This document shows, piece after piece, positions 26,812-53,668 of a DNA stretch of 64,000 nt; the stretch's first letter is position 1; each line of letters opens with the position of its first letter. The stretch comes from Hyaloraphidium curvatum (taxonomy: Eukaryota; Monoblepharomycota; Hyaloraphidiomycetes; Hyaloraphidiales; Hyaloraphidiaceae): the NCBI GenBank assembly GCA_025558095.1, contig JAIVFI010000018.1:434001-498000 (forward strand), given 5' to 3'. Made by a program: the position numbers and the translations under genes. Below the pieces are notes generated by a model. That model did not search any database. It was not told the origin of the DNA and saw only the letters and a program-made list of their open reading frames with translations.

Positions 26812-28083
26812 ATGGTCGGTGGCTCGGAGGCTCCGGAAACCCCACGTTGACCCCGTGTCTTCGACCGGAACCGTTCAGACCATCTTCCGACCCTGCATTG
26901 ATATCGACCAAGGACAGGTCACCGTCCGGCAGTACCTCTACGATGCGCCGGGGGCCACGGTGCACCACGGCAAGCCCGTCGACCGCGACATCAAGAACGC
27001 GGGGCACTACGCCGCGCTGTTCAAGTCGCACGACCTAAAGGTACGCCGCACGGCCTGCGCGCACCATGCTGCGCCCGCTGAACCTAGCATTGCGGCCAGC
27101 ACGGGCACGTGTACAAGCACTCGGCCAACTGCGACGAGGCCGCCCTCGAGGCACTGCGAACCTGGCCAAAGGCGTTCCAGCTCGGCGGCAGCATCAACCT
27201 GCAGAACTGCCAGTCGTGGTTGGACGCGGGGGCGTCCAAGGTGATCCTGCGGAACGAGCTGTACCCCGATGGGCACTTTGACGAGGACCTGCTCCGGCGG
27301 ATCTCGGAAAAGGTCGGGACGGAGAACCTGGTCGTTGACGTGACGTGCAGGAGAAAGGGCTACGAGGACTACTGGATCGCGCTCAACAAGTGGACCTCGT
27401 TCGCGAACCAGAAAGTCACGGAGGACTCCCTGACCACCCTCTCCTCGTACTGCTCCGAGCTCATCTTCCACCCCGCGGACGAAAGCGGCCGCCAGACCCG
27501 CGTGGACACGGACTTCATCGAGATGGTCCACAAATGGACGGGCGTCCCCTCGCTCTACGCGGGAGGATGCCGCTTCAAGCAGGACCTCGTGCTGGTCGAG
27601 CGGGCCTCGGACCAGCTCATGGACGTCACCTTCGGGTCCGCGCTGGACGTGTACGGGGGGACGACCGTCACGCTCGCGGAGCTGGTGGCGTGGAACAGGG
27701 ACGTCATGTCGGGGAGCCACGAGAAGAAGAAGGACGCGTACCACCGGCCTTCGCTCTCTGGGGACGAGCTGGAGATGGAGCTGACGAAGTTCAGGGCGGG
27801 CGTGAACTCCACAAAGGGTTGGTCCCGCTGTGCAAGCTGCGAATGGGCCTTTTTGACCCTCCGATCGCCAGGTTCGGGCCTCTTGGCCGCACCGGGGGCC
27901 AGCCTCGCGCACGCCGCGACCGCGCCACCCGACGTCCACCTCACAATGCAGATCCCCACCCCGAACTCTTCCCAGCCGGCGCTGGCGCCGCAAACGCAGG
28001 CGAAGGTCCCCGCGCAGGCGGCACCTGCCGCACCGAAACCCGGCTCCGAGGACCGCAAGAGCGGAGGTTGCTGCAACTGCTGA
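26812..28083 (+). CDS. HIS6: HisA-type ProFAR isomerase (HIS6), paralogue A with CCNC tail
   Basis: This enzyme isomerises ProFAR to PRFAR in histidine synthesis. The proposed start is ATG 26812 followed at once by intron 26815-26878, giving M-TIFRPCIDIDQG, which matches the MTIFRP start of the neighbouring paralogue. Intron 27041-27099 precedes GHVYKHSANC. The (beta/alpha)8 markers are the catalytic Asp in CIDIDQG, the phosphate loop QLGGSINLQN, the second catalytic Asp in LVVDVTCRR, SLYAGGCRF and FGSALDVYGGTTV. Beyond the barrel (near residue 260) there is a tail of about 100 residues: an Ala/Pro/Gln-rich linker ending EDRKSGGCCNC. A likely intron 27818-27871 (GTTGGT donor, 54 nt, in frame) shortens the linker. 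The product is about 364 residues. The CC-N-C end resembles Rab prenylation motifs but could serve metal binding or palmitoylation. Confidence 0.88.
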
Positions 28084-28223
28084 TATTCAATCCATCGTGC
28101 CTATTACATTCTAAAGTGTAGACAAAGGAGATGCCCAGATGATGCCACTAGACTGCTCTTGGTCAGACGTTGTTCCAATTCACACACCCCTCCCCGCCCG
28201 TCTCCCCAAGCTCCACGAGCTTG

Positions 28224-29408
28224 CTAGACATTGTTCCAATCCACGTCCCCCTGCCGCCCATCTGCCTCCAGCTCGACGAAACAGAGGTCGCACACCCGCT
28301 GGGGGCCGGAGGCTGTGTACTTCAGACGCAGCTTGGCCTTCTTTGTGCTGTGGTCGTGGCACACGAAACGACCGCAGTTCGGGCACTCGTACCGCGGCCA
28401 CAAGAAATTGAAGACTGCGCCGCAAACGGCGCAAAAGTCGCCGACCGGCCGCGTGGTCCGCATTTCCGTGGTCGTCTTTTCGACCCGCGTCTTCATCCGC
28501 GTGAGCTGTCCCCGGATACCCGTATCGGCGGCCTCGTCATGGGGAGGCTCCTCCTCGACCACGTCCCCCATGTTCTGCACGTCCTGGCCGTGGTCCGCGT
28601 TCCATTTGAGGATCTGGGCCAGGGTCACGCCCGAGCCGCCGTAAACGTCCAGGGCGCTGCCGATCACCAGGTCCAGCTTGGAATCCGAGAGGCGGTCCAC
28701 GAGCTCCAGGTCGGCGAAGTTGCGGGCCCCGCCGGCGTACGTCACGGGCACCGTGGCCCACTGGGCAAGTTCTGCCACGAAGAGCCGTCAGCCGAACACG
28801 AAGGCCACCGATCCGCCCGACAACCCACTGCGAACGAGCTCCTCGTCGATCTGGACCTGCTTGCCGTTCTCGTCCGCGGGATGGACGAGGATCTCGGAGG
28901 CGAAGCTCGAGAGCACCAATATCGAGTCCTCGTTGATCTCCGTCTCGGTGATGGTCTTCCAGGAATTCAAAGCGTAGAACCACTTGGTCTCCCCGTCCTT
29001 GTTGACGCGGCGGCACGAAATGTCCACGACGAGCTTGTCCGGCCCCACCGCGGCGCTGATGGCCCGCAGCCGCGGCTCCGAGAACCGCCCGTCGGGAAAG
29101 AGCCATCCCCTCACGATGACCTTGTCCGCCCCGGCCTCCAACCACCCCTTTGCGGTCTGGTCCGTCACGTCACCCGCCAGCTGGAACCCTCCGGGCCAGT
29201 GCTTGAGGACGCGCCTGGCGACATCGTCGTCTGGGCCGTGCAGGAACACGTGACCGCCCGTCAGGTTGTGCTTCTTGAACAGCTCGGCGTAGAAGAGCGG
29301 GTCCGTTGAACGCGGTTCGGGTTTCTTGGCGCCACCATCGCCAAAGACGGCCTTTCGGACCGCGACTTTGCCGTCAATCACATCGATTGACGGCCTGAAG
29401 ATGGTCAT
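28224..29408 (-). CDS. HisA paralogue B fused to a FYVE-like zinc finger
   Basis: Start 29406-29408 gives MTIFRPSIDVIDGKVAVRK; one 57-nt intron (28772-28828) splits a Lys codon before LAQWATVPVTYAGGARNF. The product is about 375 residues. The HisA barrel keeps the first Asp (PSIDVIDG), the second Asp (LVVDISCRR) and the last phosphate loop (IGSALDVYGGSGV). The first phosphate loop reads QLAGDVTDQT instead of QxGGxI, so activity may be altered. After an acidic linker, residues about 303-362 form a Cys/His-rich module ending in WNNV. Its neighbour, tail-to-tail 140 bases away, is paralogue A, so the pair looks like an inverted duplication. Whether B still makes PRFAR, or is a regulatory or moonlighting copy, cannot be told from sequence. 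Confidence 0.85.
28281..28433 (-). other. FYVE-like zinc-finger segment of HisA paralogue B
   Basis: Eight ligands follow the FYVE spacing: FCAVCG, ECPNCG, VCHDH and RVCDLC, that is four pairs with His replacing the sixth Cys. A Lys-rich stretch (KKAKLRLKY) and the RVC motif match FYVE domains, but the PI3P-binding R(R/K)HHCR core is replaced by RYECPNC. PI3P binding is therefore doubtful; protein or RNA binding is possible. Confidence 0.75.
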
Positions 29409-32267: not shown

Positions 32268-33961
32268 ATGGCTCCTGCCGCCTGGAAAGCAATCGCCGCG
32301 AAGTACGAGGAAAAATTCCAGCTGCTCTTTGTCGTCGGCGCGCATGAAGACCCGTCCGCGGTCTCGAGCGTCTCGGCGGTCTCGGACGGCTTCTTCGCGT
32401 CGGACGCCGACACGCTAGCGGAAATTGCGTGCGAATGCGGGCTCGATCTCCTCGGCGACCCCGGCCAGCCGATTCCCGCGGCTGTTGCGCCGCTGCACGC
32501 CCTGCACGCGCTGTTGCGGCTCGGGGAATCTGCGGCACGGACCGCACCCACCGTTGCGCGCCGCACATTACTTGCTCACGAGGCGCGGGGAGCGAGTACG
32601 TGCCGGACTGCCTGTACGATGCGCTCGCCGCCGCGTTGCTGGGCTTCGGCCCGGCGGCGGCGGTGCCGGCGATCGCCGCGCAGCTCTGCGCCTATGCGGA
32701 CGGTTCGGACCCCGAGGTCGCCGCCAACGACGAGGCCACCGAAGGCGTCTCCACCCTCGCGTGGACGATCGTGACGGCCGCTCTCGAATCGGGCGACGTC
32801 GGGCTGTGCGACGCAGCCGCGGCGGCGCTGGTCCGCGTGCTCTCTGCCGAGGTCTCCAGGAACCCGAGGGGGTTCTGTGCCCACCACATCGCCCGCTCGC
32901 TCTCGGTCATGCTTTTTCTCCCGTCGGTGCGAACGCCACAAACCCTCGCCCTGTTCCGGGCGTGCGGTGGGACCCACCTGGACCTACAATGGTACGAGAC
33001 CCTCGCCTCGGCCGGCCTGCGTGCGGATCCGACGGACCCGCTGCTCGCCGATGCGCACCGCCCGACTCAGGAGCAGGTGAATGGATTCTGGACTGCGCGC
33101 CGCCGGCCGACAGATCCCCCGGGGCCGCCGTTCTACGGAGAAGGGAGGGAGGTGCCGGCGGGGTGGGCCGTCGCGAAGCGGTGCGCCGCTGGGCAGTGCA
33201 AATCCACCGGGGCGGGAAACATTGTGCAACAGATGTGGGCGAGGTACAGCGTGGCCCCGGAAAAGCTACGGTCGTGCGCAAAGTGCAGGTCCGTGGCGTA
33301 CTGCAGCGCCGCGTGCCAGCGCTTCGATTGGGGCACCGAGCCGGCGACGGAGGTTTCGGCCTTCGGGGTGCCGATCGAGGGGCCGCTGACGAGGCTCATC
33401 CGGCCGAACCCGCTAAGGGCGCCATGGAGGCCTTGGAGAGCGGACATGTGCCACAAGTGGCAGTGCAAGCTGAGCGCGAGGTCCTCGGGCTGGCGAACAA
33501 GGCCGGCAAGGCGAAATCGGCGGCGCAGGATGTCGATGATGTGCTGCCTGCCTTGCCGAGCGGATCCGCCGTGGATGGAGGCGTAGATGAGGAGGGACCT
33601 CTGGCGACGCAGGCTCAGCCCTGAGCTTCGCGCCGTCCTTGTAGCAGCGGGAAATACTGAAGCGAACGAAAAGCGTGTCCGACGACGTCGATCCGGACTC
33701 GTACCGGAATGCCGAGCGGAGGTACGGCGCCTCATGGGCGGAGGCTTCGTGTACGGAACCTTCTTCCTGGACGGCAACCTTTCGCCTGCGGAGCGACTGG
33801 TTGCGTACAACGATCGGATCGGACGCAAAGGGGACGCGCGGATCGAGGCCCGGGACCTGATCGCCAACCAGAACATCGCTCTTGCGAAAGAGCGCTCCAC
33901 GACCTCGCGCAAAGATTCTGACGATGACGATTCCGACACGGACTCCGACACGGATGCCTGA
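32268..33961 (+). CDS. MYND zinc-finger protein (degenerate finger), model uncertain
   Basis: ATG 32268 opens MAPAAWKAIAAKYEEKFQLL; an upstream in-frame ATG at 32178 would overlap the divergent coiled-coil gene. A helical region contains EYVPDCLYDALAAALLGFG and CAHHIARSLSVMLFLPSV. A MYND-type finger follows: RSCAKCRSVAYCSAACQRFDW. One model that keeps frame throughout uses introns 32513-32592, 33368-33417, 33583-33644 and 33675-33721. It ends in an Asp/Ser-rich tail at 33961, giving 484 residues, but the terminal His-x3-Cys of the finger is then lost. Reading straight through instead supplies MCHKWQCKL but stops at 33586. The last part (33587-33961) could then be a separate small gene. MYND fingers bind proline-rich peptides. 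The MYND call is firm; the 3' structure is not. Confidence 0.55.
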
Positions 33962-34507
33962 GTGCACGCGGCTTCAAGAGGTTGGTAAGCCAAGTCGCCG
34001 AGATCGGGATCCATCTGACTTCCTCCTGACACAGTTGAAGCAATCTCGGTGGATAGACGATAGACGGATGGTGCGGTGCGGAGTATAGAAATGATGGCGA
34101 TAGACATGGATTCGCGATGATGGAGCGTCCTGTGTAACACACCTGTGTCGCGGTGACCGTCCGATCGTCCCGGTTCTTCGTTGCCATGAAGCCGAGGGAA
34201 GCGATGGAAGGGCACAATGGATAGGGATAGGCACGACGCGATACGGGCAAAGAAAAGAAGGGTAAAGGCGCGTGTCCCTCGGTACATCTCCCAGGACACC
34301 TCATCCCAACGATCCCCGAGCTGACTTCTCCAGCAAGCACGTCCAGAAAAACGTGCGGCAAGCATCGCTAGGCGTGCCCTGCGTGTCCTTCCTTCCTAGG
34401 CGCCCGGAGTCGTGTTGTCCCATCCCCCACCCCCGCCCGACGGATCCCGCACCTCTCCGCTAGCTGTCCCGAAGTCAGACGGATCGAAATCAGCAAGGAA
34501 AACGCGT
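33962..34507. other. Convergent intergenic region of 546 bases
   Basis: This is the gap between the MYND gene end and the E2 gene stop. Open frames here are short, overlap one another and show no family similarity that I recognise. I found no tRNA, 5S copy or repeat. Confidence 0.45.
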
Positions 34508-47106: not shown

Positions 47107-47236
47107 TTGATACCTCTTTTTGTTCGCACTTTGATGGATACATTCTGTTCTCATCGATTCAGTGATGGGTTGACTCGGCGCACAGCTTTCGTGAGACCCG
47201 ACAACCTCCAACTCACGCCCTCGAAGCACCGAAACA

Positions 47237-48298
47237 ATGGACTACCAGATAAAGACCGGTCTCCGACCCGCTTCTTCTTTCGATCCCTCGACCGCGAAAC
47301 CCGTGGAAGCGGAGCGCCCGCTGTGGGCGGCCATGAACACATCCGGCTTCGCGCGGTTCGTCAACGATGCGATGCGGGACCTCGCCGTCGAGGTGAAGTC
47401 GGCCGCGGCTCTCAAGCTGCGGACGAACAAGGATGCCCCTGCCACGGAGGCCAACATCTCCGCCGTGCGGAGGTCGGCCCAGGCCTTCTACGCTTACGTG
47501 TCGCTCACGGACTTCATAGAGCGACCGAAAGGGTTCGCCGAGCTCGTCGGACCGTTCTTCCCGCCCGGTGTCGCATTGCCTAAGATGCGTCCTACCGAGG
47601 AAGTTACGGTGGCTGTCGATCGAGAGGTCTTTCGCGGATCCTTCGAGAGCATTCGCACCATCATCGTCGCCCGACCTGGAACTCCCAGCTTGATGGTCGG
47701 AACGACGGCTGTCTCCGCAATTGGCATCATTTCACGCAGCGCCGAGCTGCTTCCCATTGCGCACCGTCTGGCACAGGACACCGAGTTCGTGGCCGCCGTC
47801 TGCACGTCGGCAGCTCAGGTCCTCGGGCACCTCCTTGACAAGCCGCACCCGGGGTTGCCAAGCTCCGACCCCAAAAAAGACCTCTGGCTCGCCGCACAGC
47901 AGGCCGAAGATTTGATCCTCGATTCTTCGTCGTTCGTGACGCTCATTGCGGCCGCAAGCGACAGGATATGGAAGCCAGGTAGCGATGTCGCCACGGCTCT
48001 TGCCGATCTGGGCAAAGCCATGCTTCCCTGGAACGAGAGGTATGGACTGGGTACCGGTCCGCTCAAGGATGTTCGGGACCTTCTCGCAATGCTGGAGAAG
48101 GGAGGAAGGCCGCCGAGCAAGCTTAAGAAGTTCATTCATACGTCTCTTGACTTCTGCGACAACTGCTCCCAGATGGTCGCGAAGACCATGCGCTGCTCCG
48201 CGTGCAAATTTGCCCGCTACTGCAGCGTCGAGTGCCAGCGATCGGCATGGAAGGAGGGCCACAAGGGCAAGTGCGGAAAGAAGAGTTACCAGACGTAG
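47237..48298 (+). CDS. Intronless MYND zinc-finger protein
   Basis: This single frame of 353 residues starts at ATG 47237 (MDYQIKTGLRPASSF). The first 300 residues are mostly helical with no domain that I recognise (AAMNTSGFARFVNDAMRDLA, AVRRSAQAFYAYVSLTDFIE). The last 45 form a complete MYND finger: FCDNCSQMVAKTMRCSACKF, ARYCSVECQRSAWKEGHKGK, with all eight Cys/His ligands. MYND domains recruit partners carrying proline-rich motifs. No SET domain is present. It is the second MYND gene in this window; the other (near 33.3 kb) has a less complete finger, and the two share little elsewhere by eye. Confidence 0.85.
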   Translation: MDYQIKTGLRPASSFDPSTAKPVEAERPLWAAMNTSGFARFVNDAMRDLAVEVKSAAALKLRTNKDAPATEANISAVRRSAQAFYAYVSLTDFIERPKGFAELVGPFFPPGVALPKMRPTEEVTVAVDREVFRGSFESIRTIIVARPGTPSLMVGTTAVSAIGIISRSAELLPIAHRLAQDTEFVAAVCTSAAQVLGHLLDKPHPGLPSSDPKKDLWLAAQQAEDLILDSSSFVTLIAAASDRIWKPGSDVATALADLGKAMLPWNERYGLGTGPLKDVRDLLAMLEKGGRPPSKLKKFIHTSLDFCDNCSQMVAKTMRCSACKFARYCSVECQRSAWKEGHKGKCGKKSYQT

Positions 48299-49552: not shown

Positions 49553-49670
49553 AGATACGGCCATATCTACCAGAAAGCACCAGTTCTCGTCAGACCACTG
49601 AAGTTAAGCTGGTATGAGCCACGTCAGTACTGTGGTGGGAGACCACACGGGAATACGTGGTGCTGTATCT
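49553..49670 (+). rRNA. 5S ribosomal RNA
   Basis: The 118-nt gene begins AGATACGGCCATATCTACC and ends GGTGCTGTATCT; the two ends pair to form helix I. The internal control region GAAGTTAAGCTGGTATGAGC and the GGTGGGAGACCAC segment match eukaryotic 5S. A T-run (TTTT, then TTTTG further on) follows directly as an RNA polymerase III terminator. It is not next to an rDNA repeat, so it is a dispersed 5S gene. An identical inverted copy lies 3.9 kb away. Confidence 0.97.
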
Positions 49671-49875
49671 TTTCCCTCCTTTTGCCCCACGCATCCGGCA
49701 TCCAGTTTCATTGAGCAATCTTCCGAAGTTGATATTTTGGCTCGGAGTCGAGTTCAGTGTAGGGTGAGCAGCGCCGCGCAACAACTGTGCGATTGATCGA
49801 CGGGCTGTGCCATTGCGTCGCGTCTCCCGCCCGCATCGTCCAATCCTGCGCGATTCCATCGACTTCTCCTCAACG

Positions 49876-53377: not shown

Positions 53378-53550
53378 CGCGTTGGGTGGTTGGGCTGCGA
53401 ACCGCGATCACGCGGCAGGTCCGCACCCCCACTCCGCAGACGCGTTCCCCCCCATCTCTAGGCAGGAATCGTGCCAAAATGCACTGGAACAGTATCGTAG
53501 AAGACAGTGGGAACTGTTCTTACGTGTGCACGACCAGGAAAAATCGAAAA

Positions 53551-53668
53551 AGATACAGCACCACGTATTCCCGTGTGGTCTCCCACCACAGTACTGACGT
53601 GGCTCATACCAGCTTAACTTCAGTGGTCTGACGAGAACTGGTGCTTTCTGGTAGATATGGCCGTATCT
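53551..53668 (-). rRNA. 5S ribosomal RNA, second copy
   Basis: This is the reverse complement of the 49553-49670 gene, identical over all 118 bases by manual comparison. On the minus strand its 3' end is followed by TTTT, a Pol III terminator. Flanking bases do not match those of the first copy, so only the transcribed region is shared. It lies 173 bases from the start of the TIMMDC1-like gene. Confidence 0.97.

Follow-up and report, generated by a model that had tools for sequence, protein, structure and literature searches.

HisA serves as a model for substrate change in (beta-alpha)8 barrels after duplication, and most of what has been learned from it comes from bacteria and from laboratory work (PMC7591586, PMC9088769). 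The described eukaryote-type enzymes, yeast HIS6 (2agk) and Medicago HISN3 (9fcf), which belong with the family model TIGR02129, have chains that stop at the end of the barrel or a few residues beyond. A second parallel comes from FYVE-Rheb and its relatives, where duplications and losses have led paralogues to swap or combine FYVE fingers and lipidated ends; Rheb itself is a GTPase whose FYVE is N-terminal, whereas the locus described here joins a HisA barrel to a C-terminal finger (PMC5869587). The two genes of this locus (A and B, Table 1) resemble the eukaryote-type HisAs in sequence over the full barrel, in the aspartates of strand 1 and strand 5 and in the motifs of strands 7 and 8, but differ from 12 ordinary members in being altered around loops 1, 3, 4 and 6 and in bearing C-terminal tails. 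A tail like those of A and B is absent from the nine bacterial HisAs that were aligned, from an ordinary HisA on contig C6 of the same genome and from the HisA of a viral contig (IMG/VR contig L071). We favor, at slightly better than even confidence, the proposal that A and B are neofunctionalised HisA-like barrels, one of them docked or dimerised via a FYVE-derived finger.

Table 1. Features of the A/B locus (positions in the window; the splice models are ours).
Feature	Position	Strand	Details
Gene A	26812..28083	+	382 aa, end ...DRKSGGCCNC; splice model
Gene A exons	26812-26814, 26879-27040, 27100-28083	+	splice model
Gene A introns	26815-26878 and 27041-27099	+	both GT..AG
Gene A layout	26812..28083	+	HisA-like barrel, about residues 1-255, plus 127-residue tail
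A loop 3	27184..27198	+	GGSIN for GGGI; alignment of 12 ordinary HisAs
A loop 4	27250..27255	+	Arg-Asn for invariant Thr-Ser; alignment of 12 ordinary HisAs
A Ala/Pro-rich linker up to Cys end	27868..28080	+	coding-type substitutions versus copy A'
A GGCCNC end	28063..28080	+	absent from copy A' on C32
Gap between the stops of A and B	28084..28223	.	140 bases
Gene B	28224..29408	-	375 aa; HisA-like barrel plus FYVE-like tail
Gene B exons	29408-28829 and 28771-28224	-	splice model
Gene B intron	28828-28772	-	GT..AG, 57 nt, splits a codon
B FYVE-like zinc finger	28266..28436	-	residues 306-362; Pfam FYVE; third pair C-x2-H (CHDH)
B loop 4	29106..29111	-	Arg-Gly for invariant Thr-Ser; alignment of 12 ordinary HisAs
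B loop 3	29163..29177	-	AGDVT for GGGI(N/T); alignment of 12 ordinary HisAs

The window (the whole stretch of 64,000 nucleotides that was analyzed) is a portion of contig C18 in a genome of 31.9 Mb and 55 contigs. The convergent pair of HisA-like genes 140 bases apart that the initial annotation had described was recovered by our gene models, in agreement with Pfam His_biosynth matches in both genes (64 bits for A and 33.9 bits for exon 1 of B; cut-off 23.6). The frames are open throughout and the introns are GT-AG in both genes; the first coding exon of A is a lone ATG, placed by matching the MTIFRP start of B and of the C6 gene. On TIGR02129 (hisA_euk, an equivalog model), A and B scored 232.9 and 238.1 bits, only narrowly above the cut-off of 229.3, compared to 292-373 bits for the ten bacterial members. 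Phmmer matched A to Medicago MtHISN3 (9fcf, 4.2e-41) and to yeast 2agk (2.2e-40), and B to yeast 2agk (2.3e-47). The whole barrel length is retained in A and B, and the aspartates of strand 1 (D9) and strand 5 (within VVD), which we take to be catalytic in eukaryote-type HisA, are kept in A, B and the C6 gene. Passing the TIGR02129 cut-off makes HisA activity a possibility for both proteins.

We found six His_biosynth exon matches genome-wide, two on C7, one on C6 and one on C32 in addition to A and B. The C6 gene, modelled with two introns that were positioned by eye, has a tail-less product of 274 aa with complete ordinary HisA motifs, and scored 348.5 bits on TIGR02129. This normal tail-less HisA probably does the ordinary histidine-pathway job. 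The C7 matches belong to HisF (hisF was the best model for both pieces), and HisG is present on C3. The earlier description of the locus as a duplicated histidine enzyme is correct in that A and B are HisA-type duplicates whose tails differ, both above the HisA cut-off; it is weakened by the ordinary HisA on C6 and by the loss of many invariant HisA positions from A and B.

To define these positions, A and B were aligned with 12 ordinary eukaryote-type HisAs, comprising nine bacterial loci, yeast 2agk (40-260), Medicago 9fcf (14-267) and the C6 gene. A scan of genome contigs for homologues bearing the tails of A and B yielded two relatives, both bacterial by title, and nine of 398 genomes of one phylum exceeded the TIGR02129 cut-off, one of them being the genome of L023. 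The two scanned genomes and the 398-genome set together gave ten bacterial loci over the family cut-off; nine were used as rows, and L035 was left out, no frame having been found. Eukaryote-type HisA was thus observed in scattered bacteria (L023, L024, L029-L036). A scan of viral contigs gave one relative (L071), an ordinary tail-less HisA that stands outside the 12 aligned.

Among the columns filled in at least 11 of the 12 rows, 58 are invariant. A is changed at 21 of these columns and B at 18, with 13 common to both, compared to 0-5 of the columns invariant in the remaining rows for each ordinary member in a leave-one-out control (4 of 62 for the C6 gene). By our own reading of the alignment, 14 of the 21 changes in A and 13 of the 18 in B fall around loops 1, 3, 4 and 6; about seven and five, respectively, lie outside these loops, and general drift may account for some of the loss. 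The conserved substrate-loop positions (H-x-G-x-V-KQIVG, GGG, TS and EG-x3-G) are intact in neither protein. Around these loops, the changed positions are H11 and KQIVG onward in loop 1, the third Gly of GGG in loop 3, and the Glu and Gly of loop 6; in loop 4, T106 is replaced by Arg in both A and B and S107 is also changed. The altered phosphate loop of B (QLAGD, loop 3) to which the initial annotation drew attention is real in the sequence, and loop 3 of A is altered as well (GGSIN). The YAGG and GSALDxxGG motifs (strands 7 and 8) are retained in A and B; within or next to them, both proteins have Phe → Tyr and B also has Thr → Val. The 58 columns exclude the strand-1 Asp, as 9fcf has Asn there, presumably engineered.

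Loops 3 and 4 of the Salmonella enzyme (SeHisA) supply R83 and S103, which hold the second (distal) phosphate of ProFAR (PMC9088769). Because ProFAR is gripped there by these two residues, the second-phosphate side is probably remodelled in A and B, whose positions were matched to those of SeHisA by motif, SeHisA being outside the alignment. It could still be proposed, as the initial annotation did, that A and B are HisA isozymes with ordinary catalysis and that their tails send them to membranes. The scores above the TIGR02129 cut-off, the full barrel and the two retained Asp residues are consistent with this proposal, which we nevertheless consider unlikely given the 21 (A) and 18 (B) alterations among the 58 positions that are otherwise invariant, many of them near the substrate loops, and the presence of an ordinary HisA on C6. 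Mutations at the second-phosphate site are also reported as one way in which a HisA can acquire TrpF activity (PMC7591586), and A or B might substitute for a missing PRA isomerase (TrpF) in the manner of bifunctional PriA. The changed distal phosphate side, the conserved strand 7/8 side and the gained Arg would suit such a role; the replacement was weakened as a candidate by the GATase-IGPS-PRAI frame on C19, in which a PRAI domain over the cut-off lies behind the IGPS domain, and we regard it as highly improbable. A GATase-IGPS-PRAI fusion points to a fungal or closely related source.

The eight-ligand FYVE-like finger that had been proposed to follow the barrel of B was confirmed, with a Pfam FYVE match in exon 2 well over the cut-off (47 bits, E 2.7e-12; cut-off 27.8) and 49.7 bits for the tail alone. 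The ligands are arranged as C-x2-C, C-x2-C, C-x2-H and C-x2-C. A single exon, uninterrupted by a stop, encodes both the barrel end and the finger, and the fusion in B is therefore independent of the splice guess. The finger is like those of Vps27 (1vfy) and EEA1 (1joc), both of which were sequence matches to B, in its eight zinc ligands, its Pfam FYVE score and the RVC near its end (QRVCDLC). It differs from FYVE domains of the Vps27/EEA1 type in being joined to a metabolic barrel and in lacking WxxD and R(R/K)HHCR, in place of which it reads TTRPVGDF and WPRYECPN. Because these two motifs are missing, PI3P binding by the finger is doubtful, and docking or dimerisation appears more likely; NFLWP is, by a mapping that we assume, the hydrophobic turret. 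The genome has ten FYVE matches at E <= 0.001, and the pattern was read out at six loci, B's included; the other five fingers carry R(R/K)HHCR in every case and WxxD in four. Among these five, the best-scoring against the finger of B was the C-terminal FYVE on C24 (26 of 58 residues identical, z 8.0 with Cys/His held fixed), followed by the C37 finger (20 of 57, z 7.7). The CHDH third pair is common to B and the C24 FYVE, upstream of which a long coiled-coil-like frame was noted by eye. Structure prediction of the B tail from the single sequence was of low confidence (mean pLDDT 45.0).

The GGCCNC end of A was found as previously described, but the linker that precedes it is about 120 residues long, starting from about residue 255, and not 90-100. 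There was no Pfam match for the tail of A (27871-28080), and single-sequence structure prediction of the last exon was of low confidence (mean pLDDT 42.9). A search of all frames of the genome for the GGCCNC codons followed by TGA, the one stop considered, gave a single occurrence. A 97% identical copy of A, here called A', is located on C32 (L007 4238-5870), and the match starts 178 bases ahead of the ATG and ends at about codon 374. Beyond that point A' jumps to sequence matching 33905-34124 of the window, where a gene that lies farther on, in the orientation of A, has its 3' end; the junction looks like the result of a loss of about 5.8 kb from the copied segment. Lacking GGCCNC, A' runs into a foreign reading frame for a total of 431 aa, and it carries a Gly241 → Arg change in the strand-8 motif. 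A third occurrence of a 3' end like that at 33905-34124 was observed at C32:71935-72173 (78%).

Comparison of A with A' over codons 1-374 gave 15 synonymous and three nonsynonymous differences (dN/dS 0.06, p 1.8e-7), and five and one, respectively, over codons 258-374 (p 0.005). Because of the synonymous excess over codons 258-374, the linker of A is very likely translated and constrained up to codon 374; the Cys end lies outside the compared codons. We considered whether the barrels of A and B have lost their function or are losing it, as pseudoenzymes or pseudogenes, with the tails as leftovers, as might be suggested by the loop changes in both proteins and by the strand-8 substitution and lost end of A'. 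This seems quite unlikely, in view of the open frames and GT-AG introns of A and B and of the ratio of 15 synonymous to three nonsynonymous differences, which indicates that A-type proteins are constrained (B is without a close copy); a constrained pseudoenzyme scaffold is possible for the A-type proteins. The tails could also be annotation artefacts, with the finger or Cys end derived from another transcript or spliced out. The missing Cys end of A' fits such an explanation, which we hold to be very improbable given the unbroken exon frame that runs from the barrel end into the finger of B and the five synonymous differences versus one in the linker of A.

Rab-type prenylation requires a Rab body plus its escort protein. 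GGCCNC falls among the C-terminal CC, CxC or CCxx strings of such prenylation, and we inspected by eye 12 Ras-superfamily ends of this genome, drawn from 37 exon matches. Four are double-Cys ends (SGGCC, SGCCS, SGCSC and KSGCC), four are CaaX-like (CSLQ, CSIL, CRIL and CNIL) and the remaining four were unreadable. A shares with Rab GTPases a double-Cys end after a Ser-Gly stretch, as do four of the ends inspected here, but differs from them in that it has no Ras/Rab domain (His_biosynth was its sole Pfam match at E <= 1) and that its copy A' has no Cys end. The suggestion of a Rab-like prenylation end is thus upheld as to the idiom, which is that of the genome's own Rab-like ends, and not as to the Ras domain or the copy. 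The putative Cys end could receive a Rab-type lipid, be palmitoylated or bear no lipid. The broader suggestion that both tails are of membrane-targeting kinds stands in a similar position: the finger is FYVE-derived and the end of A is Rab-like, but B is without the PI3P signature and A without a Rab domain. From these sequence features, membrane targeting of A and B by their tails is plausible.

Several other features of the window were recorded. Two genes with MYND-like Cys-rich ends, as judged by eye, lie on the + strand at 32348-33960 and 47195-48298. Two 5S rRNA genes of equal score, 49553-49671 (+) and 53550-53668 (-), are in opposite directions and 3.9 kb apart. On the - strand, at about 56773 and 59559, there are two frames with near-identical ends, PQE(G/N)WLTRRRMDAAR...CYWGSGNNCETSY; by eye, the longer frame resembles a beta-hexosaminidase, whose end the other frame appears to duplicate.

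A 14-row tree groups A and B as sister paralogues (support 100/99), with a long stem leading to the pair. We propose that they are two products of an old duplication of one HisA-like gene, and that this ancestor had probably left ordinary histidine synthesis before the duplication. The second phosphate of ProFAR would no longer be gripped in the usual way, and the barrels may bind a different, probably smaller phosphorylated ligand, acting as altered-substrate isomerases or as ligand sensors. The FYVE-derived finger would most likely dimerise B or dock it through protein contact or weak membrane insertion, and the tail of A would be a linker that is translated and probably disordered, with a Rab-like and possibly lipidated cluster of Cys residues at its end. 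A finger already present in the ancestor of A and B (A CASCEWAF versus B CAVCGAVF) was also considered. In local alignment of the two tails, the score was reached by 1125 of 2000 shuffles (362 of 2000 for the first part); the alignment being no better than shuffles, the tails show no detectable relationship, and a tailed ancestor shared by A and B is no more than a possibility.

A HisA-FYVE fusion was not found among the matches listed by a word search of the open-access literature. Judged from sequence, A and B represent a new combination from known parts, with a likely change of function. A more specific proposal, which we rate as improbable, is that A and B form a membrane-associated sensing or enzymatic pair, in which the barrels have been adjusted to a smaller ligand of the phosphoribosyl type, B sits on endosomal membranes as a dimer of the FYVE style and A is anchored via its lipidated Cys residues. 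If this were true, a purine, histidine or tryptophan metabolite would be sensed or converted at an endomembrane. With respect to the HisA family, A and B provide a natural eukaryote pair that is altered near the same second-phosphate site, in a genome that has kept an ordinary HisA, and that has gained modules of the types found in membrane proteins. If the tails work, a core metabolic barrel would have been recruited to membranes.
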